From Neocallimastix lanati (nom. inval.) (Eukaryota; Neocallimastigomycota; Neocallimastigomycetes; Neocallimastigales; Neocallimastigaceae), in NCBI GenBank assembly GCA_016946835.1, contig JACVTC010000009.1:1712501-1772500 (forward strand): a stretch of 60,000 bases of DNA. Direction: 5' to 3'. Below, piece after piece: positions 3,574 to 59,408 of the stretch. The position numbers and the translations under genes are program-made. How positions within the stretch are numbered: the first letter of the stretch is position 1; every line of letters begins with the position of its first letter. The notes under the pieces were generated by a model, which was not told the DNA's origin, searched no databases, and worked only from the letters and a program-made list of their open reading frames with translations.

Positions 3574-4839
3574 TTAGTAATAGAAAGTGTTGTCAATAAA
3601 ATAATTAAAAGATTCCTTGTTGATTTTTTTTGTTAAGATATCAGCAAGCATATTATTAGAATTAATGTGTGGAACATTAATAAATACCTTCTTTATATTA
3701 TTCATTACAAGTGCGAAATCGCCTATTCCCCTTTTTGAATTGTTTAACCATATAAATCTTTTAATAAAGTCAGTTGTTATATTAAATATAGTTTCATTAG
3801 TGCTTCTAGCTATGGATTTTCGTCTTTTTGATTTCCGATGAATAGGTGCACTTCCTATGTACATTTTTTGCCTACTGGTTGATTTTGCATTATCATCATT
3901 ATCCTTTAGTTCAAAATTTATATCTAAATATACAATTTTATTTAAATTATCATTACCAGGTTCTCTTAAACTATTGTTAATTAATAACTTGTTTTCGTTT
4001 TTCTCTATTATAGAATATTTAGTTTTTTCTTCAATCAAAAATGATTCCTTATTAGTAGCTTCAGTTGGAACTTCATTATTAAGAGTAGTAGTTTCATTTT
4101 CTTCTTCTTCCTCTTTTACTTTTTCATATTCCTTTTCATTAGCTGCAATGGTTTCTGCAGTAATAGTGGTTTCTTTAGTTGAAATTTTTCCATCAAGGGT
4201 AGTAAATTTTTCAGTAGAAGTTTCTCCATCAAAAGTAGTAGATTCTTCTTCCTCTTTTACTTTTTCATATTCTTTTTCATTAGCTGCAATGGTTTCTGCA
4301 GTAGTATTGGTTTCTTTAGTTGAAATTTTTCCATCAAGGGTAGTAAATTTTTCAGTTGAAGTTTCTCCATCAAAAGTAGTAGATTCTTCTTCCTCTTTTA
4401 CTTTTTTATATTCTTTTTCATTAGCTGCAATGGTTTCTATAGTAGTAGTGGTTTCTTTAGTTGAAATTTTTCCATCAAGGGTAGTAAATTTTTCAGTTGA
4501 AGTTTCTCCATCAAAAGTATTAGATTCTTCTTCTTCAGTTTCAGAATAACGAGCCTTTAAATAATCCCATAATTCAAAGGCTGTATCAATATCATCCACA
4601 TTTTCCCATGTATCTTCACTTATGTGAAGGTATATAATTCTTCTGGCTTTACTATCATCTTTTGCTGTTACAGTTTTTAAATTTAACGTTTTTTCTTCTG
4701 TTTCTTCAGTAGCATTATTATTTGAAACAATGGTATGACCAAGGTTAGCATCTTCTAACTTGCTCATTATAAAATGGCTCCATATTTTATAGTTTAATTC
4801 ATTAAGGATTATTCTATCCATTTTTATGTTTAATTGCAA
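3574..4839 (-). CDS. Gag-RNase H fusion protein of an internally deleted copia element
   Basis: Intact 421-codon ORF. Residues 7-100 look like a copia Gag N-terminal (UBN2-type) region: LNELNYKIWSHFIM and AFELWDYLKARY match the usual N..NY..W and ..LWD.L...Y motifs. Residues 106-246 are three perfect-length 47-residue repeats (3 x 141 bp, 4102-4524), rich in Thr, Glu and Lys. Residues 295-421 correspond to the copia RNase H C-terminus (AKSTSRQ.., RSTNETIFN.., NNMLADILTKK). Protease, integrase and RT are absent, so Gag is joined in frame to the end of Pol. The RNase H acidic residues are largely lost: YSDAS and TTEAEF in the plus-strand sister at 5.4-6.1 kb are YLDIN and STNETIFN here. The ORF is probably a non-autonomous relic that happens to be open, or a retained Gag-like protein. 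Flanking LTRs share its orientation. Confidence 0.7.
   Translation of the reverse strand: MQLNIKMDRIILNELNYKIWSHFIMSKLEDANLGHTIVSNNNATEETEEKTLNLKTVTAKDDSKARRIIYLHISEDTWENVDDIDTAFELWDYLKARYSETEEEESNTFDGETSTEKFTTLDGKISTKETTTTIETIAANEKEYKKVKEEEESTTFDGETSTEKFTTLDGKISTKETNTTAETIAANEKEYEKVKEEEESTTFDGETSTEKFTTLDGKISTKETTITAETIAANEKEYEKVKEEEEENETTTLNNEVPTEATNKESFLIEEKTKYSIIEKNENKLLINNSLREPGNDNLNKIVYLDINFELKDNDDNAKSTSRQKMYIGSAPIHRKSKRRKSIARSTNETIFNITTDFIKRFIWLNNSKRGIGDFALVMNNIKKVFINVPHINSNNMLADILTKKINKESFNYFIDNTFYY
4102..4524 (-). repeat. Three 141-bp in-frame tandem repeats
   Basis: Three direct copies of a 141-bp unit inside the Gag-RNase H ORF, each encoding 47 residues that begin with (S)(N/T)TFDGETSTEKF and end with a run of Glu. 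Copies differ at a handful of positions only, so the expansion is recent. Because 141 is divisible by 3, copy-number changes keep the frame. Confidence 0.95.
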
Positions 4840-4904
4840 TGATAAATATCTTTTTTATTAGAATTTGTTTTATTTTATGTTTATTATAATTATTTTTGTA
4901 CGGC

Positions 4905-4918
4905 TGAGACTCTTAATC
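4905..4918 (-). promoter_or_regulatory. Primer-binding site, tRNA-Lys(CUU) anticodon-arm type
   Basis: Minus-strand GATTAAGAGTCTCA sits immediately inside the 5' LTR. The plus strand here, TGAGACTCTTAATC, is identical to the conserved anticodon arm of eukaryotic tRNA-Lys(CUU) (anticodon CTT). The same 14-mer follows the 5' LTR of the element at 25.3 kb. This suggests priming by the 5' half of a cleaved tRNA, as known for Drosophila copia, which uses a half initiator-Met tRNA. The tRNA identity is inferred from memory of the family. Confidence 0.65.
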
Positions 4919-5166
4919 TTTTAGATAAGCCTGGCTATAATAGCTCAATTCGTACAAAAATAATTTTATATAAACTTTATTTATTATAAAATTTATTATT
5001 TATTAAAATAATAAATTGATTTACACTAAAATGAAAATTTTTCTTTTGTTTACTTTTTTATTTATTTAAAATACCATTTTGAAAATAAAAATTTTTCCCT
5101 TTTTTTTTTTTTTTTTAAAATCCTAAACTAAACTCTCTTAAAAAAATATAAAATTATTTTTATTTT

Positions 5167-5241
<75 letters not shown>

Positions 5242-5275
5242 CATACTATATTTGTATTAATGACTAATTAATATA

Positions 5276-5309
<34 letters not shown>

Positions 5310-5317
5310 TTTTTTTT
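4919..5317 (-). repeat. Truncated 5' LTR of the minus-strand copia element
   Basis: Direct repeat of 2921 onward, starting with the same TTTTAGATAAGCCTGG and running through the TA- and T-rich tracts. It stops in a poly-T tract at about 5317, lacking the outer 200 bp that would carry the TGTTAGA terminus. It abuts a plus-strand copia pol fragment at 5318. Confidence 0.85.
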
Positions 5318-6151
5318 GAAATTAACTATATCTTAGGTATAAAAATTACAAAAACAACTGAAGGAGAATACACTATGGATCAATCCAAGTATATTCAAAA
5401 CAAACTAGATGAATATAATATTACTGGAGAAAAGGACAACCCTTACTCGGAAATATCTGATAATGAGAAGAACAATATTGAAATTGATCCTACTAAATAT
5501 AGATCAGCTATAGGGTCACTAATACACTTAGCAAGATGTACAAGACCTGATATTAGTGAAACAATTAGTAAATTATCTACCAGAAGGAATAATCCTACTG
5601 TAAGGGATTGGAAAATGATAATAAATGTTTTATTATACTTAAATAAAACAAAAAATTACTTTCTAAAATTTAATAATAAAGAAGACATAGTTGCATACTC
5701 AGATGCTAGCTTTGGACCAAAGAATAATGATTATGGGGCGAAATCAACTACCGGTTATATAATATATATTGGATGCGCCCCAATCTGTTGGAAATCAAAA
5801 AAACAGAAATTCACTGCAAGAAGTACAACTGAAGCTGAATTTAATGCAACTGCCGATTTGATTGAAAAAATCATTTGGCTAAATAACTTAAATAAAGAAA
5901 TTGAAGGAAAAGTTTTATTATTCCAAATATATTGTGATAGCCTTAGTAATATTAAAATATTAACTAATGAAAAAAGAACAAACTCATCAAGACATTTTGA
6001 TATAGATTATTCATTTGTCATGGATTATATGAAAGAAGATTTCATTAATATTTCACACATTAATTCTAATAATATGCTTGCTGATATCTTAACAAAAAAA
6101 ATCAACAAGGAATCTTTTAATTATTTTATTGACAACACTTCCTATTACTAA
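5318..6151 (+). pseudogene. Ty1/copia Pol C-terminal fragment (RT end plus RNase H)
   Basis: The frame is open from 5318, where the poly-T junction cuts it, through the first Met codon at 5375 to the stop at 6151. Upstream of that Met the frame reads EINYILGIKITKTTEGEYT, the end of a copia RT. Then follow KYRSAIGSLIHLARCTRPDI (RT/RNase H connection) and RNase H with YSDASF (Asp110 counted from Met 5375), STTEAEF (Glu153), YCDSLSN (Asp188), RHFDIDY and NNMLADILTKK. The catalytic acidic residues remain, so the source element decayed recently or was active recently. Gag, protease, integrase and most of RT are missing. A 3' LTR follows at 6202 after a polypurine tract. Not expected to be functional alone. 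Confidence 0.85.
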
Positions 6152-9314: not shown

Positions 9315-9842
9315 ATGTCTTTATTATTTAAAGATTCTAGAAAAATTGTTATTACTTACTCTAGAGCTGATGAAAATTATCCATCTGTTCAACTTGAAGT
9401 TGGTAATACTGAAAGATTGGGTGATATGATTATTGAGTATACTCATGCAGATAAACATCATATTGAACCAGCTAAGCCATATCCAAAGGGTTATAAGCAA
9501 TGTTGTGACCAAGCATTAGAAGAAAAGAATCAAGGAGCTAGACCAGCTGTTGCTAATCAATTAGAAAATTTAGATAATTATGATACAATTTTCTTTGGAT
9601 ATCCAATTTGGTGGGGAGATTTACCAATGCCAGCTTATACGTTTATTGAAAAATTAAACTTTGAAGGTAAAACAGTTATTCCATTCTGTACTCATGAAGG
9701 TAGTGGAAATAGTAATACATTTAATAGCCTTAAGAGAAAGATGAAGGGTGCTAAATTCTTAAAGGGTATTGAAATTCAAGGTAATAGAGTAGATGGCTCT
9801 AAGGAAATGGTTAATAAATGGTTAAGTGCTATTGGTTTCTAA
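9315..9842 (+). CDS. Flavodoxin (flavodoxin_4-type, bacterial-like)
   Basis: 175 residues, a full-length short-chain flavodoxin that should bind FMN and act in electron transfer or quinone/nitro reduction. The N-terminal strand and phosphate loop are IVITYSRADENY...VGNTERLGDMI (residues 11-39), which is the flavodoxin_4 variant of the usual T-x-T-G-N-T loop. FGYPIWWGDLPMP (94-106) and FCTHEGSGNS (124-133) are the two FMN-ring-contacting loops. No signal peptide, so cytosolic or hydrogenosomal localisation is possible but not shown. The style of sequence is that of Firmicutes proteins, suggesting horizontal acquisition, which is common in rumen fungi. This start has a good A-rich context; an alternative spliced start lies at 8636. 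The gene stands alone between two copies of a 1-kb repeat, and codon use is A/T-ending like the other intact genes. Confidence 0.93.
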   Translation: MSLLFKDSRKIVITYSRADENYPSVQLEVGNTERLGDMIIEYTHADKHHIEPAKPYPKGYKQCCDQALEEKNQGARPAVANQLENLDNYDTIFFGYPIWWGDLPMPAYTFIEKLNFEGKTVIPFCTHEGSGNSNTFNSLKRKMKGAKFLKGIEIQGNRVDGSKEMVNKWLSAIGF

Positions 9843-24499: not shown

Positions 24500-25283
24500 T
24501 CCCTCTATATGTACTTACCTATTGTGTCTATCCCTACGGTTACAATAAGTATGGTATGGAAATTAAATTATTTTGTATGTTTGGAGTGTAAAATACTTTG
24601 CCAATTGAAAAATTATTATTTTTACATGTTCCTTTGCACATACCCTTTTTGTAAATTTTATCAGGTTGTCCATTGGGGTATAGAATTTCTTTATTAGAAA
24701 ATTCTTCATAGTGCTGTTTGATAGTGCTTTTCATATATTTTTGGATAAGTTAATTCCTATTCCACTATCAATGATTCTCTGTTGCAATCTTCTTTATCAT
24801 TATTTTCTTCTTTTAGGATATAGACCTTTTTATTTTATTTACCTTTATGTTATTGAACTGCTATTATGATTGTCTTCTATAATATTAGTTATTATATTGA
24901 AACAGAAGTCAAATGATGGACATGTATCTAAATTTGAATTGCTTTGTTCTTCATAATTAACGTTATAAGATTTAAAGTTTCCTTTACTATTTTTTTTTTT
25001 TTAACTAAAAGATGTTTTATTCTTATTTTTATTTTTATTTCTTGGTTTATTATTATTGCTATTATTTTCTTCTTTGTAGTTATTCTTTGGTAAATTTAAT
25101 AGGGTTGAAAAAGCAGTTATCAGTAGTATGCCCATTTTTATGGCAATAAAAGCAGTATTTTCATTGTTATTTTTGATGAATTTGCCGCCTTTGCTGCCTT
25201 TGCTGTTTGTGTTGTATTTATTAAAGTTTCTGAAGACCTTCGTGTAGTTGTTAAATTTTCTAATTTAGTCATTAATTAATGTG
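24500..25283 (-). pseudogene. Ty1/copia Gag-protease relic
   Basis: Minus strand. Near 25,100-25,160 the frame reads YCFYCHKNGHTTDNCFFN, a CCHC zinc knuckle (C-x2-C-x4-H-x4-C). Further downstream (about 24,545-24,640) GKVFYTPNIQNNLISIPYLL matches the copia protease segment V.Y.PN...NLIS...L. Stops and frameshifts separate the parts. The cargo-bearing LTR element (25,289-29,780) is inserted upstream within this relic, whose Gag-like reading appears to resume weakly beyond 29,786. Confidence 0.65.
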
Positions 25284-25288
25284 ACTAT

Positions 25289-25505
25289 TGTTAGAATATG
25301 TGAAATATATAAAATAAGTGTCAAATGTATTTATAATGTATTGACACGTATTGTATTAAATTAAATGTATAAGCCACATATTATTCATATAAATACATGT
25401 AAGCTCATAGAATTATACATTGAGTAATTCTTGAGTTATTCTAGAGTATATAATATATTAATAAAGTTGACATAATCATTAACCATAAATTCCAGATTGT
25501 TAATA
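25289..25505 (+). repeat. 5' LTR of the cargo element
   Basis: Starts TGTTAGAATATGTGAAATAT and ends CAGATTGTTAATA. The boundary is fixed by the ACTAT target duplication on one side and by comparison with the 3' LTR on the other. The last two bases are TA, not the usual CA. Confidence 0.93.
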
Positions 25506-25519
25506 GATTAAGAGTCTCA
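25506..25519 (+). promoter_or_regulatory. Primer-binding site, tRNA-Lys(CUU) half type
   Basis: GATTAAGAGTCTCA, directly abutting the LTR. Its complement is the tRNA-Lys(CUU) anticodon arm. It is identical to the site of the copia element at 4905-4918. It can also fold with the adjoining bases: AGAGTC (25,511-25,516) pairs with GACTCT (25,523-25,528). Confidence 0.7.
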
Positions 25520-25543
25520 ATGGACTCTCAGTGACTTTCAAAG

Positions 25544-25565
25544 GGATTCTCTGAAAGAGAATTCC
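25544..25565 (+). promoter_or_regulatory. Leader hairpin
   Basis: GGATTCTC - TGAAA - GAGAATTCC: an 8-bp stem with one bulged T and a 5-nt loop, in the RNA leader just after the primer-binding site. This is the usual place for dimerisation or packaging signals; role inferred from position only. Confidence 0.5.
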
Positions 25566-26328
25566 TAAGCCGGACAAAACTTTATGTAAAAGAAAAAATT
25601 ATAGAAATTCTAATCCTTACAAATCAAGATTCAATTTAATTCTATTTCTACTATATGAAAATACTTTTGAGATCTGAAATTGAGATCTTGAAATTTCAAA
25701 ATTGAAATTTAAATTACAATATTAATTGAAAACTGAAAATTATGAAATATCAAATATCTAGATAAAATTAAATAAATTTTCCATTTGTTTAATTGAATTA
25801 TAAATAAATTTTAAATTCCGAATGAGAATTAAATTACATTCAATAATAATTTAAATTCAAAATTTCGAATTTAAATAAAATTTAAAATTAATTTAAATTT
25901 ATAGATTGAGAAATATAGTTTCGAATCCAAAATTCCACGATATTTAAGATATTGTTATTCTTGAAAATAAACAAATTTAGAATTTTAAAATAAATAAAAT
26001 ATTTTGGATTTAAGTAAAATGATTTTAAATCTGAAAATAACTATGGTAATCATTGTCAGGATGTAAACAAAGAATTTAAATTTAGAAGAAAACAAAGTAT
26101 CAAATTTCAAATTTTAAATTGATAATAAATAAACCACATTAGTATGCAAATAACATTTTAAGTCGAAACAAGCTTATTTACTCATGACCCCTATAATATA
26201 AATATTGAAAATCGTTATTGATACAATTAAATTTTAAATTCAAATAATAGATATACAATACAAATTATCAAATAATTCCAAATATCTTATTTTAAACATT
26301 ATTTTAATCATAAAACATAAATATTAAA

Positions 26329-27387
26329 ATGAAACAGTTATATTATACTTTAATTTATATTATTCTATTTTGCTTCGGTTCAAATGCTACTGAAAACCGT
26401 AAAGAATATTTTTTTGCGGTTGGATTTAGAGAAATTATTTATGTTAATAACATAAAAAATGGAGAACTTGATCAATTACATAAAATAGATATTCCACTTC
26501 ATGAACAATCTTGGGATTATATAGAATTTAACGACATTTTATTGCAAGAATTAGAAAAGGATGGTTATTATTATGAACATATTGATGTTATTAGTATAAA
26601 ACATGCTGGATTTTACATCGGTACTCAAATCGAAGGAAGGATATTTGAATTTAACCCAAATGGAATGCATTGGTCGGAATATAAAATGGGAATAGAAAGA
26701 TTTAAAGAGATCCCAGAAGACAAAAGCGATTGGAACTGGATATCCTTAGATCATACTGGATATACATATGTCTCACCTGAAATTTTGGAACAATCACTAA
26801 GAAAGTACATAAAAAATAACCATTATTTTAAACCTGGTTCATTCCATTATATATGTAATAATTCTTTTGATTTTGTATACTGGTGTCTAAATATACTAAA
26901 CGATAAGGATAATAGATTGACTAAAAATTATAGACTTAATACTAATTATACACCTCATGAATTCAAAGCTAAACCAAAAAATAATATTAAAAGTATAGTA
27001 TTAGTGCATACCTTAGAAAACATAAAAAGGGACGAATTACTTGATAAACTTTTTGAATTATATCCTCCACTTTTAAAATATATCAACGGAATAAGTGAAG
27101 TTACTACCGATTATTACATAAAAATGTCTAACATTAAACAGGATAATATGATCTGTATACCTTACGTTGGAAAAATTAGTACACCAAATCTCGTCACCAC
27201 AGATAGTGAAATTATGTTTGATTCTTTTAATAAGACATTTAATGCAATAACTGGAACAAAATCTATCGTACATAGTAAATTAAATGGATGTCATCCCAAA
27301 TACGGAAAATGTAAATATGCCAAAATTACTACAAAGGAAAAGGTTATAAAAAAGGTAGTTAAAATTCCCAAGAGTAAGAATAACTGA
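26329..27387 (+). CDS. Secreted protein with permuted-papain-like (PPPDE/LRAT-like) signature, LTR-element cargo
   Basis: 352 residues, intact. Residues 1-20 (MKQLYYTLIYIILFCFGSNA) are a clear signal peptide. Residues 85-120 (ISIKHAGFYIG..., His92) and 168-189 (SFHYICNNSFDFVYWCL) have the spacing and wording of permuted papain-fold proteins, in which a His strand (H-x-G-x-x-I) precedes an N-N-C-x-D-F helix. Here the usual Cys position is Ser179, with Cys176 three residues earlier, so the enzyme may be inactive or rearranged. The C-terminal 60 residues are Lys-rich, with CHPKYGKCKYAK at 321-332. There is no transmembrane anchor. It is the only ORF in a young LTR element. The start has an ATTAAAATG context. 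Fold assignment is by eye; the protein could instead be an unrelated secreted factor. Confidence 0.8.
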   Translation: MKQLYYTLIYIILFCFGSNATENRKEYFFAVGFREIIYVNNIKNGELDQLHKIDIPLHEQSWDYIEFNDILLQELEKDGYYYEHIDVISIKHAGFYIGTQIEGRIFEFNPNGMHWSEYKMGIERFKEIPEDKSDWNWISLDHTGYTYVSPEILEQSLRKYIKNNHYFKPGSFHYICNNSFDFVYWCLNILNDKDNRLTKNYRLNTNYTPHEFKAKPKNNIKSIVLVHTLENIKRDELLDKLFELYPPLLKYINGISEVTTDYYIKMSNIKQDNMICIPYVGKISTPNLVTTDSEIMFDSFNKTFNAITGTKSIVHSKLNGCHPKYGKCKYAKITTKEKVIKKVVKIPKSKNN

Positions 27388-28071
27388 AATATAAATTATC
27401 ATAATTATTTAACAAGAATTATCCATTATACCAATTTTCTATACAATAATGCAATTTCATAAATACTGAATTACATATTTTTCAATCATAATAGAGAAAT
27501 AAACATAAATAATAGAAGTTAATTGATTTGTTAAATAAATCTTTTAATTATTAAGATAAAAAATTAAATGAATATATTAATTATTAAGATGAAGAATATG
27601 ATTAAATTTTAATATTTATTATTTATTCATAAAGTATAAATAATATTAGAATTTTCATGTTTGTCTACTTTTCAAAGAATTACTCCTTATGTCACTTTAT
27701 AAAATAACCATTTAAATTTCCATATATTTAATTCAATAATCAAAACTATAAATACATGTGGACAAAGAAAAGAAACATAGAATATGTAAATATCATGTAT
27801 TAAAATATACAATAACATATATCTTTCTTATAGAAGTTAATCACACACGCACACATTAAAATATTCTTACATTTCTAAATAATAGAAGAATATACAACAT
27901 TTATTTATATTTAACATAGAATTAATATATAAGAAATTACTTATAAATGAAAGAAATTATAATTAACTTGAGGTTAATTATTCTCCCAAATTATTGCACT
28001 ATTATATAGTATTTTATTAAAAAGTGAAACACGTATACTTAAATTTTATCCGAATATACTTAATAGTTACT

Positions 28072-29112
28072 GCTTAACTACAAAGCGGATATTCGAAGGA
28101 AGATGTCACAAAGTACCAACATATATAATAATTGGTACATATTATTCATAAAATTAAATAGAAATGCTTAGCGTGAAATGAGCATATTCTACAATAATTA
28201 TAATAATTGATTACATAGGTATTTTCATTTAAATTTAATATAATATCATGATTTAACTTAGCGTGAAATGTGCTAAATCATAGATAATAATAATAGATGG
28301 TGTTAGACCTTCATTGAAAGGGCTCCATTTCATATATATTAGACACCTCATATTATCACTTAAAATAGTGAGTTTTAGCCGCCATTGGTACTTAACTTCC
28401 AATTAATCAAGCGGATATTTCATGTTTAAATATAATATTAAACTGATTTTTGAATTTTATATAATTTAGATTACTTTCATTAAAAGTATGGTGCAATTAA
28501 TCATTTAACTATTGCAAACAATTTAAAATTTTCATTTACAAATCTATATATTTATTTCAAAATATTTAGATTTGAGGGGGAATAGTGGTCACTGAAAATT
28601 TAAATTTATGTATAACTGACCAGAAAACGTATATCAAATTCTAGTTAATAATCTTCAACATATAAAGATATTATCCAGTAAAAATAAGAAAATTGAAATA
28701 TTCAAGAAATAGTTAAAGATTCAATACATGATAAGACTAATATTTCTTAAGATGCTATAATGACAAAATTATACATTTGCAAATTATAGAAGCCTAAGAG
28801 GGAAAAGTAGTGAAATTAACATACAAGAAAAATTAACTAAAATATGGAATCTCAATCAGATATAAGACAATTTATATTAATTTATTAATAAATTTAAATG
28901 TCTAAAATAACGCAATTAAAATATTAGATTAATTTAATTTTAATACTCCAAACAAAATTTACTTAATACACTTAATATATATAATAGTTAACGTTTATCT
29001 ACAAAACGATATTTTAATAGTTAATGCTAATCTATAAAGCAATATTTAATAGTTATCGCTAAAACTACAAAGCGAAATATATATATAAAAGTTAGCGCTA
29101 ATCTACAAAGCG
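28072..29112 (+). ncRNA. Array of small hairpins in the 3' non-coding part of the cargo element
   Basis: At least five short hairpins share a loop containing CTACA or CTATA but have different, complementary stems: GCTT/AAGC (28,072-28,086), CGTTT/AAACG (28,992-29,008), TGCT/AGCA (29,025-29,041), TCGCT/AGCGA (29,056-29,075) and CGCT/AGCG (29,096-29,112). The last four are spaced 31-40 nt apart. Stem changes are compensated, which is the mark of selected RNA structure. Two further hairpin-like motifs with a common TAGCGTGAAATG lie at 28,164-28,185 (stem ATGCT/AGCAT) and 28,259-28,270. Confidence 0.55.
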
Positions 29113-29554
29113 GATTATAATTAAAAGTGATGTAATTCCCAATATATAAGAGATATTCGGTATTCACATATTTTAGATGGTATAATATCACCCTTCAAGA
29201 GAAAGGTTTCCATCATATATAAATGGTATATTTAAACCATATAATTATTTTATATTAAAGATGACATAGATTCATATAATATTTATTAAAGGTGTAAAGA
29301 TATTAAATATTTAGTTTTAGGGGGAAATTATTAGATTAATAATATATTTAAGAAATTATTTTTGTAATATTTAAATTTAATTAAGGAATTAATATAATGT
29401 AAACTATTTTATTCATGTAAAATTAAAAGTTAGGTTTGAAAAGAAATAATTTATTATTTAATAGTATCAAGTGTATAATATTAGAGAATAGGATAATTTT
29501 ATATACACATATTCATCAGTAAACCAATTTATTCTTTACTGAATAATTAGGTTT

Positions 29555-29563
29555 AAGGGGGAA
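29555..29563 (+). promoter_or_regulatory. Polypurine tract of the cargo element
   Basis: AAGGGGGAA immediately before the 3' LTR start TGTTAGAATATG. Similar tracts inside the element, GAGGGGGAA at 28,574-28,582 and AGGGGGAAA at 29,319-29,327, may be extra plus-strand primer sites or remnants of older termini. Confidence 0.75.
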
Positions 29564-29780
29564 TGTTAGAATATGTGAAATATATAAAATAAGTGTCAAA
29601 TGTATTTATAATGTATTGACACGTATTGTATTAAATTAAATGTATAAGCCACATATTATTCATATAAATACATGTAAGCTCATAGAATTATACATTGAGT
29701 AATTCTTGAGTAATTCTAGAGTATATAATATATTAATAAAGTTGACATAATCATTAACCATAAATTCCAGACTGTTAATA
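29564..29780 (+). repeat. 3' LTR of the cargo element
   Basis: 217 bp. Matches the 5' LTR except T/A in TTGAG(T/A)(T/A)ATTC and T/C in CCAGA(T/C)TG. It is followed by the ACTAT duplication. Confidence 0.93.
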
Positions 29781-29785
29781 ACTAT

Positions 29786-31042
29786 TACTATTCCTTTATT
29801 TTTAATATTTAATGAATGTTTAATATTTAATATTTTGAATTTGATATTAATAATTCTTAATGAATTATTGAGTCAGTAAGGTGCTTAATCTGTTAAATAT
29901 AACACTTAAAAATAAGAAATGATACGTATATTTCATTTATTATATTATTTTTTTATATTAAGAAAGATCAAATTCATTTTAGAATAAGCCAATACATGTT
30001 ATTTATAATCATTTCTCTATAATAGAATAGAAATAATAGTCTTTACATTATTGGAAATATTTAGAGTTACACTGTATAATACTATCAAAAAAATATATTT
30101 TACACTTAATAATGTAGTATAATGTTCCTTAATAACGGTAGGTCTAATGGCATACATAATAAATTGAATCATTAGTATTATAGCTTAAAAATGTTTATAA
30201 AAAAATAATAAAAATAAAAAAAATAAAAACTACTAATCACAATATATGACATCCACAGTTTTATTATATAATTATAAAATATAAGATAAAAACAAAAACA
30301 AAAATAATATTATATATATATAATTTTTTTATATATTAAGAATTGTAATTATAACAATAATAGTTTATATATATATATTTATTTTTTATTTATAAAAAAA
30401 TTAATTATATTTATCCTATAAATAAATAAGTAAATGATAATTAGAATTATAAATAGAAATTTTTTTTTTTAAAAAAAAATATTAATATACTTTATTTCCT
30501 TTTATGGTATATATATAGTAAATTTATCAACAATTAATAACTAATTTAATTAACAAAATTTTTTTATAAATTTATTTTTTTTATTTTATTTTATTATATT
30601 TTATTTTATTTTATTTTATTTTTTTTTTTTTTATGTTTAAATTTTTATTGTTATCTAGAAATTCAATTTACTGCATATTAATTATTCTATAATATAAATA
30701 TATATATTTCTTCTTAAAATTTGAAATTTATCTATTATACATAAAAATTTAAAATAATTGTTAAAATAAACAAGTTTTTTTTTATTAAATTAAATATAAT
30801 ATGGGAAAAAAATTTTTTTTTATCTTATACTAATGATATTACTAATTATAATAATTAGTTTTATTTCTGCAAATAATTATTTTTATTTTATTTTAAATAT
30901 ATTAATGGATGAAATAAATATATTTATATTATATAGTATCATATAATATAAAATAAATATATTTTATATTATTAAAATAATTAAATGATTATATTTCAAA
31001 TATATATGTCTTTTTTTTTTTTTTTTTTGACCAATTTTTTTT
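29786..31042. other. A+T-rich spacer with weak copia Gag remnant
   Basis: 29,786-29,900 on the minus strand can be read as a copia-Gag-like continuation (LLTDSIIH) of the relic split by the cargo element. The rest holds TA and T/A tracts (for example TTTTA repeats at 30,572-30,632) and no gene. Confidence 0.5.
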
Positions 31043-38869: not shown

Positions 38870-40330
38870 TTTGGAAATTCCTCTGTCATTTCATAATTAT
38901 TTATTATAAAATAATATTTATAAAATAATATTTATAAAATATTATTTAAATTAGTTAAACATTCAGACCACAATTTAGTAAGATCACTTCTATCATATTT
39001 AATATCAATTAACTTGGCTTCTTTAATTTTTGTATTTTTCAATTAAGATATTAATTTCATCAGTTTTTGTTTTTATTTTTTTTCATTCTCCAAATTCCTT
39101 TTATTTTCATTTGGTAATCATAATATGATAAATATTCCTGTTCTTTTAATTTATTTATTAATTCATAAAAAATTTGGTTTCATTGGAAATAGTTTATTTA
39201 AAGAATTATTGAGTGATTCTGAAGCATTATTAGTTATATGTTCAATATTATTATAATAATTCCAACTTTTCATATCGTAACCAAATAAATATGTTTCATA
39301 AAAATATTCTAAAAATTTTAAAAATAGACAAGAATTTTTTTCAATGGATTTAGTTTTAATTAATGAAAAAAATATCCATTATGTATTCAGGGTTGATAAA
39401 TGGTAAGTTTGAAATTCCTTTGTAATAATTAAATATTTTTTCATCATCGTTCACTCCATTACAGCACAATTCATTTTTTTTAATTTCTAATAAATTTTTA
39501 TAATGCCAAATACAGTATTTAATATTTATATTAGGAAATATTTTTTTAACTGCTTTGGATATGCCTTTTTCAAAATCGCAATGTACATTTTTTGGTTCAG
39601 TTATAATATTATTATTAGAATTTTGTTTTAATTTATTGAATAATATTTTATATGTTTTTTGCTTTTTATTTATTAATATTGCATAAGAAGTAGTATAAAA
39701 ACTATTCAATTCTTTAACGTAAGTTCTAGTAATAAACACTTGTTGACTAAATTTAGGTGCGATATAAAAAGTACAATCCACAAATATATCATTATTATAT
39801 TTCTTAAATAATTTTGCTTGAAAAGGGGATTGAAAAATTACTAAATCAGAATTTTTGAATATCATAAAATCTTCATTTCGTTCAGTTTTATAATATTCAG
39901 ATTTATTAGGAATTTCATTAAAAGTTGTTACATTGGATGGTAGTTTTTTATTAATACTTCTTAATATTAGAGTTTTAACTGAAATATATTCTGGACACGG
40001 ATATATAAATCCTATTTCTTTAGAAATTTCATTATATAGTCTTTTTCGTTTTATATCAAAAGGATTTGAATGTTTTTTAATTTCATCTTTAATTTTATGT
40101 TTCATTACAGATAGGGATACACTGTATTCGTTTCCAGTGATTATGAAACTCTCATATTTTAAGATTTCTTTCTCATTATTTAAAAATAATAAAAGATTTA
40201 CATTTATTATTTTTTTTATATTCGGTACATTTATAAATTCTTGAATTATCTTTCCTTGAATGTGAAAAATTAAATTTATATTGTTTATTGTTTATTAATA
40301 ATGATTTGTTCTTCTCCTTTGTTATATTCA
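38870..40330 (-). pseudogene. MULE transposase (frameshifted)
   Basis: The central open part (39,356-40,105, 249 residues) contains NNDIFVDCTFYIAPKFSQQV (Asp110, first catalytic acid), NVHCDFEKGISKAVKKIFP (Asp177, second) and YCIWHYK (C-x2-H), the MULE DDE signature order. Upstream, at about 40,180-40,290, a shifted frame reads YKFNFSHSRKDNSRIYKC and KCKSFIIFK, compatible with a FLYWCH-type zinc finger that ends in a His-x-His piece after a frameshift. Downstream, at about 39,200-39,330, another frame reads WNYYNNIEHITNNASESLNN, which carries the third acidic residue (TNNASE). At least two frameshifts separate the parts, so the gene is broken. Confidence 0.8.
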
Positions 40331-41786: not shown

Positions 41787-43776
41787 TGTTAGAATAAATG
41801 TATAAAAAATAAGCTTCATATATATTGAAACATTTAGTGATGAAAATAATGTATAAGCCACAATGTATTAATATAAAACTGATCAAAATGATCAAGATTA
41901 CAAAATTGAAGAAACTCGTAAAATATAAAATAGTTGGAAAAAAAGGAAGTTATTGCATGTTAAATAAAGCTCCAAAAAATATAAAATTATTAATTTAATA
42001 GGGAAAAGCACACTTAAACGTATATAAAAGAAAATTATATATCTTCATACTTGAGACTTTTAATAGAAATTATAATTTGATATTTATAACAAATGAACTC
42101 TTGGCTATTTAGCAATGAAATATATCTGTAGATAAAGGAACCTACCATGTGATAAACTATTTCCATCCCATGAATATATAAAACCCAATTTAATAATAAA
42201 TATTATGGAGATTTAAACAATCCTATATTAGATAATGATTCTTTTTAAACAACAAAACACATTATTTAAAGTATAGTTATTTTAATGAGTATTTCTACAT
42301 TTCTACATATCAAACTCATATATATAAATATAAACTACAATAATGGAGGAGGTATATGTCAGAGATCCCATACAAAATAATTTAAACTATAATATCCCAA
42401 ATATTCAAGGGGAAAATATAATAGATTGGTAATTCCTAGAGTGAAATGGGTGCATTCTAACAATAATAGTATTATTAAAACCTAGCGTGCAATGGGTTTA
42501 GATCATTAACTAATTCAATATAAACATAATGCAAACCTTGGTGAAGAAAGGTATAATAAAATAATAAATATAACCATGAGTTATATACAAAATGGATGAT
42601 GATTATCCATCTACAAACTGTATTTATTGAATGCTAAGTATTTTAAAGTTATAATCATTAAACTTTTATCATTAATATTTTAATGTTGAGAAAATTTCAA
42701 ATATATAAAATCCATTTTAGAAATTTCGATTTTAGGGGAGAGTCGACATTAATAGAAATAAAGATAATATAATATTAAAGAAAAGTTACTTAACTGATTC
42801 TTTGAGCTGATTATTTTAAAAAAAAATAATTTATCTTGGAAAGGAATAAATAGCCTAATAGTGAAAATTAACAAAAAATTAACCTACAAAAAAAAAAAGA
42901 ATTAACTGAAATATTGAATCTTAATCAATTATGAAACAATATATAGTATTTACTAATAAGCTTAAATGACAAGAATAATACAATTAATTATAAATGCAAT
43001 CAATTTTAATACCCAAAGATTATGATTTATCAAGTACACTAATATATAATAATTAACAATTTATATTAATAGTTATTGCTAAAACTAATAAATCGAAAAT
43101 ATATAAAAGTTATTGCTTATCTTCAAAACGGATCATAAGTATAAGTGATGTAAAAACCAAATATATAAGAGGTATTCACATAAATTGAGATGGTATAATA
43201 TCACCCTTCAAAAGAAAGGTTTCTATCATACAAATGGTATATATATAAACTATATATAATAAGAGATATTATAAATACATCCAATATAAATGGTGTAAAA
43301 ATATTAAATACTTAGTTTTAGGAGGAAATTATTGGATTATAAATATATTTAAGAAATTATTTTAACAATATTTGAAAATTAAATTAAAGAATTAATATAA
43401 TATAAAATTACTATAATTCATATAAAATTAAAGGTTAATTTTGAATAGAAATAACTAATAGTTTAATAATATCAAGTATACAATATTATATAATAGAATA
43501 ATTTTATATACACATATTAACCAGTAAAACCAATTTATTCATTATAGAATAACTTGGTTTAAGGAGGAATGTTAGAATGATAAAAAGATGTGAAATGTAT
43601 GAAAAATAAGCTTCAAATGTATTGAAACATATTGTAAAATAAATAATGAAAGTCACAATGTATTAATATAAAAGCATTTAATTTAGAATAATTAAAAATT
43701 AGTAACTTTTTTCTATCATATAATATATTTAATAAAATTGACATAATTATAAACCATAAATTCCTGACTCTTAATC
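41787..43776 (+). mobile_element. Decayed relative of the cargo LTR element, no ORF
   Basis: 5' LTR start TGTTAGAATAAATG at 41,787 (LTR truncated near 41,880). The 3' LTR 43,570-43,776 starts TGTTAGAATGATAAAAAG after a purine tract GGAGGAA and ends near GACTCTTAATCA. The internal part aligns by eye with 27.7-29.56 kb of the cargo element: TAGAGTGAAATG and TAGCGTGCAATG motifs (42,437; 42,483), a segment with GGTATAATATCACCCTTCAA (about 43,192-43,211) and AGAAAGGTTTC. No ORF corresponding to the 352-residue protein is present. No target duplication recognised. Confidence 0.8.
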
Positions 43777-43960
43777 AATGGAGATATATGTAGGAATGTT
43801 AGGGAATACAGTCCTAAGCAGATGTATAATGACGTATGGAGGAGTAATGCTGTACTAGTATACCAGTTTGTCACATATCTGTTATGGTTATAATGGGAGA
43901 TGGGTACTCATCATGTGTTTCTAAATTTTTTTTTTCAAGACTCATAACAATAATAAAATA
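43777..43960. other. Unassigned less A+T-rich segment
   Basis: About 130 bp with relatively high G content between the LTR and the minisatellite. Short frames only; nothing recognised. Confidence 0.4.
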
Positions 43961-48610: not shown

Positions 48611-49735
48611 TTAATTTCTAATAATACACCAGTCACCATCTTCAATACCCCAACTACCATCATCATCAGTGTAGTAAACTTGCTTGGTTGATTTACAGCA
48701 TGGATAACCTTGAGCACCAACACAAACATTAGAATTACCAGTACTACAACCACACCATTCTTCATTTTCAACACCCCAAGTACCATCATTATCAGTGTAA
48801 ACGACTACACAATTCTTGGAACAACATTTGTAACCTTGTCTAGTAATATTAGAGGAACAAGCACTAAGTTCTTCTTGGCCATTACCGGTTTCATCTTCTT
48901 TACCATTGTTGCTGTCGTTTTTAATAGATTGAAGGTATTCATCGATAACTCCAGCCCAGAAATTACCAATTTTTTTGTAACCATTTCCACTTGGGTGAAG
49001 TCGATCACTACCTATATCAGACATACCGTTAAGACAACCATGAACATCAGCAAATCTAACATTCTTACCCTTATTAGCGTATTCGTCAGCAACCTTCTTA
49101 ACTGTACCATTGTAATTGGCAATTCTTTGAGCATTACCACCGTAAGCAGTAAATTCTGGAATAGAACCCATAAAGATAATACTATTGGCTGGCATATCTG
49201 CAAGCATATAATCTAAGAGAGCACGAAGATCATTGGCACAAGCATCCATTGAACGATTGGCAGTCATATCATTAGTACCAATGATAAGAAGAATGATATC
49301 TGGTTGAGATTGCTTAACAGCATTCTTACTCTTAAGTTTATTATATAAACTTCCTTCACCACCTTGTTGTTGACCCCAGCCTGGAATTTCTTTGATTTGG
49401 AATCCACTGTAACCAGCATTATTATCATCATATTGTATACCATTAGCTGAAGCACTGTTAGATCCTTCCGGACCTACCATATCAATTTTATAACCTTTTT
49501 GAGTTAAGGCACTGTAAAGATACTTTCTGTATCCACCTCTTTCACCTTCACCAAAGGTGATAGAATCACCAACAGGCATAATTTTAACAGTATCACCTGA
49601 TACAGCAACACCACCTCCATTGTTATTATTATTATTATAACCACCGAAATCACCAAAGCCTCCAAAACCTCCCCATTGGGCAAGAGTTAATGATGCAAAG
49701 GATAAAACAAAAGAAATTGAATTTAATAATTTCAT
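48611..49735 (-). CDS. Secreted SGNH/GDSL esterase with two C-terminal fungal dockerins (CE3-like)
   Basis: 374 residues. Signal peptide 1-19 (...LTLA|QW), a Gly/Phe/Asn-rich linker (20-42) with a poly-Asn run, then an SGNH hydrolase domain: block I IMPVGDSITFGEG (Ser58 nucleophile), a YSGFQIKEIPGW segment, block III IIGTND (Asn155) and block V SDRLHPSGNGY (Asp244, His247). The IMPVGDSIT...GGYR wording is typical of carbohydrate esterase family 3 acetylxylan esterases. Two dockerin/CBM10-like modules follow (about 293-330 and 338-371: GYKCCSKNCVVVYTDNDGTW, GYPCCKSTKQVYYTDDDGSW, each with WG(V/I)E(N/D)..WC). The product is expected to dock on the fungal cellulosome and deacetylate hemicellulose. 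Length and organisation are complete; a single exon is consistent with the bacterial-origin genes of these fungi. Strongly G/C-richer than its flanks. Confidence 0.96.
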   Translation of the reverse strand: MKLLNSISFVLSFASLTLAQWGGFGGFGDFGGYNNNNNNGGGVAVSGDTVKIMPVGDSITFGEGERGGYRKYLYSALTQKGYKIDMVGPEGSNSASANGIQYDDNNAGYSGFQIKEIPGWGQQQGGEGSLYNKLKSKNAVKQSQPDIILLIIGTNDMTANRSMDACANDLRALLDYMLADMPANSIIFMGSIPEFTAYGGNAQRIANYNGTVKKVADEYANKGKNVRFADVHGCLNGMSDIGSDRLHPSGNGYKKIGNFWAGVIDEYLQSIKNDSNNGKEDETGNGQEELSACSSNITRQGYKCCSKNCVVVYTDNDGTWGVENEEWCGCSTGNSNVCVGAQGYPCCKSTKQVYYTDDDGSWGIEDGDWCIIRN

Positions 49736-58984: not shown

Positions 58985-59317
58985 TTATTATTATAAAATT
59001 TAGTATAATATTATATAATCATGTAAATGTAAATATCACCTATTCACCATTAAATCAAATTCTTCTTTTAGAATAAATAAGGTTTAGAATAATGTGAACA
59101 TTATACAATACTAATTGGTATATTTTGTATAAAATGTAGTATAATGCATTGTAACAAAATTAATGTATAAGTCATAATGTTATAACAAATAATAAATAAA
59201 AAACCTTTTAATTTAATTTAATAATGAAATACTTGTGAACTATTTATCATAAAAAATATATATATATAAATAAAAGTTGACATAAATTAAGAACTATAAA
59301 GTAACCAACTCTTAACA
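58985..59317 (+). repeat. 3' end fragment (internal tail plus LTR) of the cargo-element family
   Basis: 58,985-59,082 resembles the last bases before the 3' LTR of the 25-kb element (TATTCACCATTAAATCAAAT region, then AATAAGGTTT). 59,083-59,317 resembles its LTR: start TTTAGAATAATGTGAAC, middle AATGTATAAGTCATAATGTT, end TTGACATAAATTAAGAACTA ... CTCTTAACA. The purine tract is lost at the junction. Confidence 0.6.
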
Positions 59318-59408
59318 TATTTAAAGTGATTAAAAATTAAATATTTATTCAATAAATTTATTCACATAAATCTATCTATATAATTATATATATATATATA
59401 TATAAAAC

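Follow-up and report, generated by a model that had tools for sequence, protein, structure and literature searches.

In this work we describe a 4.5-kb long terminal repeat (LTR) retrotransposon at positions 25289-29780 of a 60,000-nucleotide stretch of contig JACVTC010000009.1 of the gut fungus Neocallimastix lanati (the window; positions without a prefix are its own). In it no retroviral gene was found, and a single open reading frame (ORF) encodes a 352-residue protein with a signal-peptide-like start, while sister elements that match it closely at their ends encode unrelated proteins in this slot. We consider it probable that this is a young, non-autonomous element of Ty1/copia type whose backbone holds an exchangeable secreted-protein cassette, shuffled among elements and first drawn from host-type genes. 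The family backbone would consist of the LTRs, a primer site, a leader and a 2-kb 3' region placed around the cassette, and the cassettes appear to encode proteins with signal-peptide-like starts, followed in several cases by a shared membrane anchor. Descriptions of gene capture by LTR elements mostly concern a single gene or gene class; one backbone with several unrelated secreted proteins would behave like an expression and transfer cassette and, if the proteins are made, retrotransposition would be a route by which a gut fungus could multiply, reshuffle and perhaps exchange its extracellular enzymes.

The structural hallmarks of an LTR retrotransposon are all present, as a first-pass annotation made from the sequence alone had claimed. 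The 5' LTR (25289-25505, TGTTAGAATATG...TGTTAATA) and the 3' LTR (29564-29780), each of 217 bp, are 99% identical and differ at two sites (25437/29712 and 25497/29772); the 5' copy is 94-98% identical to the LTRs of relatives elsewhere in the genome, given here by handles (C49, C96, C323, C135, C412 and C112). The LTR ends in TA, as against CA in four sisters (C323, C49, C135 and C112). A 5-bp target-site duplication, ACTAT, flanks the element (25284-25288 and 29781-29785), a primer-binding site follows the 5' LTR (25506-25519), and the polypurine tract AAGGGGGAA (29555-29563), which adjoins the 3' LTR, has at most one change in 9/9 3' LTRs examined. Between the primer site and this tract lie a 5' leader common to sister elements (25520-25988), a variable cassette (25989-27647) and a long, family-wide 3' non-coding backbone (27648-29554), all on the plus strand, as are the LTRs, primer site and tract. 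The backbone is 93% identical to that of C323 and 92% to those of C49 and C96, with other relatives at ~75-94% in their matched parts, and includes a hairpin core, GATGGTATAATATCACCCTTCAAGAGAAAGGTTTCCATC (29176-29214, plus strand), with 0-3 changes in all 24 rows passing the coverage filter. This core may be a packaging or other cis-acting RNA signal; Rfam gave no match across window positions 25000-30100.

The variable cassette comprises a leader of another type, the 352-residue ORF (26329-27387, plus strand) and its own 3' untranslated part. At 352 codons the ORF is far beyond chance, because the longest ATG-initiated ORF in 300 dinucleotide shuffles of the element reached 114 codons (median 59); inside the element itself the second-longest such ORF of at least 60 residues, on the antisense strand, has 66, and there is no other. 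GC content at codon positions 1, 2 and 3 is 35, 26 and 20%, compared with 20% in the non-coding part of the element and 18% in the window, whose DNA is thus ~82% A+T. Five retroelement protein queries (three gag-like and two ending in RNase H, as judged by eye) gave no tblastn match at E<=0.1 that would reveal gag-pol in the window element, C323, C49 or C752:69019-75207; as a control, the same five queries produced 32 alignments in 14 retrieved loci at 1e-5, source loci included. The first-pass description of a young, non-autonomous element, free of retroviral genes and with a single intact ORF, agrees with a 99% identical LTR pair, the silent gag-pol queries and the ORF as confirmed here, its signal-peptide-like start being judged by hydropathy only. 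With 4.5 kb and an ORF of this length the element lies outside the small, non-coding terminal-repeat retrotransposons in miniature (TRIMs), and the ORF likewise places it outside the large, non-coding large retrotransposon derivatives (LARDs).

Searches of the 199-Mb genome with the LTR, the 3' region and the leader gave 40, 57 and 50 matches, respectively; the best 40 candidates per query were scored, and the family counts given here are lower bounds. That the ORF is variable cargo within one element family, as the first-pass annotation had thought possible, is supported because unrelated ORFs are found in sisters that are almost alike at their ends. The closest are two compact elements with the same LTR, C323:384363-388429 (LTR pair 100% identical) and C49:307012-311072 (98.6%). 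When the window element is compared with C323 in blocks of 50 alignment columns, the 14 blocks up to ~25988 are 88-100% identical (13 at 94-100%, one LTR block at 88%), with the shared leader at 94-100% throughout. The next block drops to 68%, with short matches up to 26103, the slot itself is unrelated at 30-68% per block, and identity returns to 86-100% from ~27675 (BLAST match from 27648). The leader that belongs to the cassette (25962-26260) is ~75-77% identical to the leader of another sister, C112, and exchange between elements is favoured because the cassette brought this C112-type leader along. Downstream of the ORF, positions 27388-27601 fall in none of the scored genome matches of the 3'-region search and have weak ones (69-73%, 50-60 bits) among the retrieved loci.

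In both C323 and C49 the slot is occupied by a 227-residue ORF with a signal-peptide-like start, unrelated to the window ORF. It ends, at C323:386032 and C49:309403, where a -1 frame takes over, and there 191 sites are identical in the two copies; other parts of these copies differ by ~1-3%. Directly after the 227-residue ORF, a 66-residue stretch in this -1 frame contains a membrane anchor and corresponds to the end of a 280-residue database relative, P0005. A lost base is the simplest reading of the frame change, and a programmed frameshift is possible. In C112, C135 and C101 the shared anchor, ...SPWLWIGIGIGIF...CCC.H, is preceded by ectodomains that differ. With the 66-residue tail as query, 17 matches were obtained at E<=0.01, the weakest being doubtful. 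In the C112 slot a signal-peptide-like start leads into a Cys-rich stretch, after which a GH24 lysozyme begins (PF00959, E 2e-8, above cut-off) but is broken before the same anchor is reached. In C135 and C101 a broken protein with ADP-ribosyltransferase-like motifs precedes the anchor, this label combining a sub-threshold Pfam match (E 0.14) with motifs read by eye; a search of the genome with PF01129 gave no match, a result that carries no weight, its controls being silent as well. The C101 element, near 600 kb, was seen by its 3' region, with no LTR, and near C212:1287-1288 kb a decayed relative of the 227-residue protein (28% identity) stands with the anchor, which carries changes, and the 3' region. 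Long open frames are found in the window copy, in C323 and C49, and in the relative at C752:69-75 kb.

Two further loci deserve mention for their coding content. C752:69019-75207 has two long overlapping ORFs in different frames, of 315 and 624 residues; a clan-CD peptidase identity for the former (C752:73499-74446), suggested by DTHG and MASC motifs read by eye, was set aside after unconvincing Pfam and PDB sequence searches. A 194-residue ORF at C511:249676-250260, ~630 bp upstream of an LTR match, opens with a signal-peptide-like sequence and matches an EB module weakly (E 0.009, below cut-off); it may or may not belong to an element.

Several sisters combine a signal-peptide-like start, an ectodomain and a membrane anchor that has a short Cys-rich tail, and this could also be read as an envelope-like protein that the element needs for its own cell-to-cell spread. 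We hold this to be very improbable, since the ectodomains are wholly different, one being a lysozyme domain, no membrane anchor is seen in the window ORF, and no gag-pol was found. Even less credible, in our judgement, is an assembly artefact or a set of nested insertions that mimics cargo exchange. Such a scenario could draw on the same-LTR sisters with large internal unmatched stretches, which were partly read, namely C112 (1630278-1659865, ~25 kb unmatched), C135 (902602-917127, ~10 kb) and C744 (~5 kb); a further same-LTR sister, C96, was partly seen. However, three elements are compact and have an uninterrupted backbone, namely the window element (LTR pair 99.1% identical), C323 (100%) and C49 (98.6%), and the last two agree across the cassette.

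The 352-residue protein itself matches no Pfam or NCBIfam family. A sequence search of the protein database returned its own cluster, P0001, together with P0002 and P0003, and a profile search added P0006, P0007 and P0008. P0007, of 746 residues, is 64% identical over ORF residues 15-302 and 54% over residues 305-352, and the ORF is without P0007 residues 1-113, in place of which it has 14 others, and without residues 408-698; by these alignments the window ORF is a P0007-type database protein with internal shortening. Its C-terminus is part of a chitin-binding-like module. P0008 combines an N-terminal Cys module, like that of P0007 and C752 and absent from the window ORF, with a similar tail, and carries glucosaminidase, NlpC/P60 and chitin-binding domains between them or at its end, while P0002, P0003 and P0007 have chitin-binding-like tails below cut-off and P0003 also has SH3 domains. 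The central domain of the ORF (KHAGFYIG...CNNSFDFVYWCL) is marked by the motifs KHAGFYIG and CNN(C/S).DFVYWC, the latter in the version CNNSFDFVYWC, which we take to recall permuted NlpC/P60 or LRAT proteins, where a His-bearing strand precedes a helix with the catalytic Cys. Judged by these motifs only, the protein perhaps has a papain/NlpC-like fold that lacks the usual cysteine, and an effector-like role for it would be speculation. No relatives of P0007 were confirmed in viral contigs, nor any of the ORF in the prokaryote collection.

An alternative that overlaps with our account on the first origin of the cargo is host-gene capture, in which an ordinary secreted-protein gene was taken up and mobilised, as in Bs1 or the retroduplicated nucleotide-binding leucine-rich repeat (NLR) genes of pepper. 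We regard this as quite possible while stopping just short of favouring it. The ORF family has modules in common with database proteins that resemble secreted enzymes of cells (P0002, P0003, P0007 and P0008), and captured genes are common in plant LTR elements according to the available parts of two studies (PMC3726574, PMC5664825). In addition, C522:331500-333500 contains a single open frame of 666 codons that encodes GH24, chitin-binding (9e-11) and NlpC/P60 (1e-8) domains, 55% identical to P0008 over 264 aligned columns, which likely represents a host gene for a secreted peptidoglycan hydrolase. Within 1.5 kb of its 3' flank, the one side examined, there is no match to the window element, and the C212 element matches once, over 145 bp at 73%. 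Since these three domains occur together in a gene that looks free of elements, the cargo modules plausibly have a host origin, and the GH24 cargo has a host-type relative in C522.

For the window ORF, in contrast, no host parent is shown, because its seven matches in the genome fall in six loci, all of them within or next to sequence of this element family. Both LTRs are at least partly seen around the match in the window copy, at C752:69-75 kb and at C115:133-138 kb; C212 has one LTR and the 3' region, and C490 and C115:84 kb have one LTR-like match each and are 93-97% identical to one another or to the remaining C115 copy. No host paralogue, with or without introns, was found among these six loci, and a candidate at C752:72 kb was dropped once LTRs were found around it. 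Of the first-pass proposal that a secreted-protein gene had been captured and mobilised, then, the variable cargo is supported, and host capture of the window gene is not shown.

The proposed link to copia elements comes from the priming signals. The first 14 internal bases, GATTAAGAGTCTCA, are a perfect complement of the anticodon arm of tRNA-Lys(CUU), for which reason the primer would be the 5' part of this tRNA, a half-tRNA mode of priming known for Drosophila copia and Ty5. The arm, TGAGACTCTTAATCTCA, has 73 matches in the genome against 0 for the reversed control, and ARAGORN places a tRNA-Lys(ctt) at the match in both loci retrieved out of the 73. Sixteen genomic sites have an exact copy of the 22-nt junction between LTR end and primer site, and 328 have it with up to one mismatch; the window copy differs from it at one base. 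Five of the 16 exact junctions belong to the family of the window element (C49, C112, C135, C323 and C744). The other 11 all share a leader of a different type, six have a gag-like ORF, and the one such ORF tested is a copia-type gag (PF14223, E 8e-12). Since the junction recurs at these sites we call the window element, from its sequence, copia-like and non-autonomous, a label that applies solely through its primer site, LTR end and purine tract, with no copia gag or RNase-H match inside. For its copying in trans the element would depend on copia elements with the same half-tRNA-Lys(CUU) primer. Cassettes would most likely be swapped when reverse transcriptase switches template from one co-packaged element RNA to another, a process reviewed in PMC13317346, and their first source was probably host-type secreted-enzyme genes.

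Several observations weigh against a copia-dependent family of exchangeable, functional cassettes. No autonomous copia element with the exact full LTR of the window element was found in the genome, only the primer site and LTR end are common to this element and the gag-bearing junction sites, and template switching leaves no decisive mark in these elements. The papain/NlpC reading of the cargo is challenged by the replacement of Cys with Ser in the window ORF, P0006 and P0007 and by the loss of the His in P0006; there is no NlpC/P60 or LRAT-like profile match in Pfam or NCBIfam, the best PDB sequence match of the ORF profile has E 1.7, and a structure model built with eight sequences reached a mean predicted local distance difference test (pLDDT) score of 44, from which we draw no fold claim. 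Many sister cassettes are decayed or broken. Finally, no purifying selection is visible among young copies, when rates of nonsynonymous (dN) and synonymous (dS) change are compared: between the ORFs of C323 and C49 there are 7 differences in 681 sites, and 6 of these alter an amino acid (dN 0.011, dS 0.007), and the C490 and C115 copies give dN 0.024 and dS 0.

The broken sisters and the young copies, together with the P0007 segments missing from the window ORF, are what would be expected if the ORF were a passive passenger, functionless and open merely through its young insertion, a reading that we find possible if rather doubtful. Against it, the shortened ORF is fully open with a coding-like composition, the same protein is present in the database on 10 contigs, and the 227-residue cargo has 17 member sequences there, on one contig. 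Moreover, dN/dS is below 1 in the deep pairs, in the range of ~0.3-0.7 (0.69 for the window and C212, 0.40 for the window and C752, 0.31-0.32 for the window with C490 and with C115, and 0.31 for C490 and C752), values to be read with a dS that is high in most of these pairs, up to 1.9; the protein was probably constrained in the past. An extension of the exchangeable-cassette account, which we put forward as unlikely, is that gut fungi keep circulating secreted or anchored enzymes, some of them acting on bacterial cell walls, as exchangeable retrotransposon cassettes besides fixed loci, with the C-terminal anchor, which one cargo type can reach only through the -1 frame, allowing both forms.

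Beyond the same-LTR sisters, the family extends to a second group with other LTRs, the same primer site and a related 3' region, for example C207:37189-41343, whose 246-bp LTRs are 99.6% identical, and C752:69019-75207, where no matching target-site duplication was seen. A third group is a short, ORF-less, TRIM-like family at C1, C2, C47, C101, C323 and C412 (e.g. C1:1553650-1555815). Two members of the window itself, both on the plus strand and both reported in the first-pass annotation, connect with this group. The ORF-less relative at 41787-43779 is real, old, with a largely decayed left LTR, 73% identical to the 3' end of the window element and ~79-91% in matched parts to the short family, and it has no ATG ORF of more than 52 residues; the fragment at 58993-59362 is present if weak, with matches of ~67-72% to the LTR and 3' end of the short family. 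The hairpin core at 29176-29214 is kept in ORF-less elements also, and a similar hairpin was noted by eye near 28297-28350. As to insertion sites, four of six elements (C323, C49, C112 and C135) sit in runs of ATT or AAT trinucleotides, with no such run at C207 or at the one C744 flank seen, and the window copy sits at ACTATTACTATT; an insertion target preference is possible.

The remainder of the window includes a GDSL esterase (48611-49735) that bears two fungal dockerin-type domains (CBM_10), a make-up typical of anaerobic gut fungi, as well as an ORF with a MULE transposase domain (39356-40105, PF10551, E 8e-13) and a flavodoxin-like ORF (9315-9842, PF12682, E 1e-26). Two retroelement-like ORFs on opposite strands lie at 3574-6151, the second being copia-RNase-H-like by eye, with no Pfam match at 1e-3. 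Elsewhere in the genome, matches to the tRNA-Lys(CTT) arm on C188, C251, C353, C266 and other small contigs alternate in strand every ~4.6-5.7 kb, as if tRNA clusters lay in large inverted tandem arrays.

Comparison with known systems, which here covers the parts of the cited sources available to us, shows both likenesses and differences. Maize Bs1, into which fragments of three host genes have been transduced (PMC13317346), is likewise an LTR element that carries non-retroviral coding sequence, its fragments being joined into one ORF. In Bs1, however, these are fragments of identified host genes, whereas in the window family whole secreted-protein cassettes differ on one backbone and the window ORF has no host parent found in this genome. 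The non-autonomous LTR elements that carry NLR genes in pepper are likewise without gag or pol, but hold one gene class, unlike the several unrelated secreted proteins, several with one anchor, that share a single slot here (PMC5664825). LTR-captured genes number 672 in rice and 1,343 in sorghum; as in the window family there are many gene-carrying elements, part of them decayed, while no exchangeable cassette within one element family is described in the available part of that source (PMC3726574). TRIM elements look like the short ORF-less relatives (C1:1553650-1555815 and window 41787-43779) and differ from the 4.5-kb, coding window element (PMC4717578, PMC6934838). LARDs resemble the latter in their lack of gag-pol, presumed mobility in trans and long non-coding internal region, and differ from it in that it has an intact ORF (PMC6431247). 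The same review of giant transposons states that LTR elements sometimes acquire ORFs and that DNA between LTRs can give rise to large derivatives mobilised in trans (PMC6431247). Gypsy elements bearing AlkB in orchids also have an extra non-retroviral ORF, but that element is 25 kb long with one extra domain, an RNA demethylase, unlike the window element (PMC9289625). Searches of the open-access literature, at the level of titles and the starts of abstracts, gave no description of such elements in anaerobic gut fungi, which is not proof of absence. Captured genes in plant LTR elements are known; what is unusual is that one backbone, in a fungus, recurrently offers an exchangeable slot to secreted or anchored proteins.

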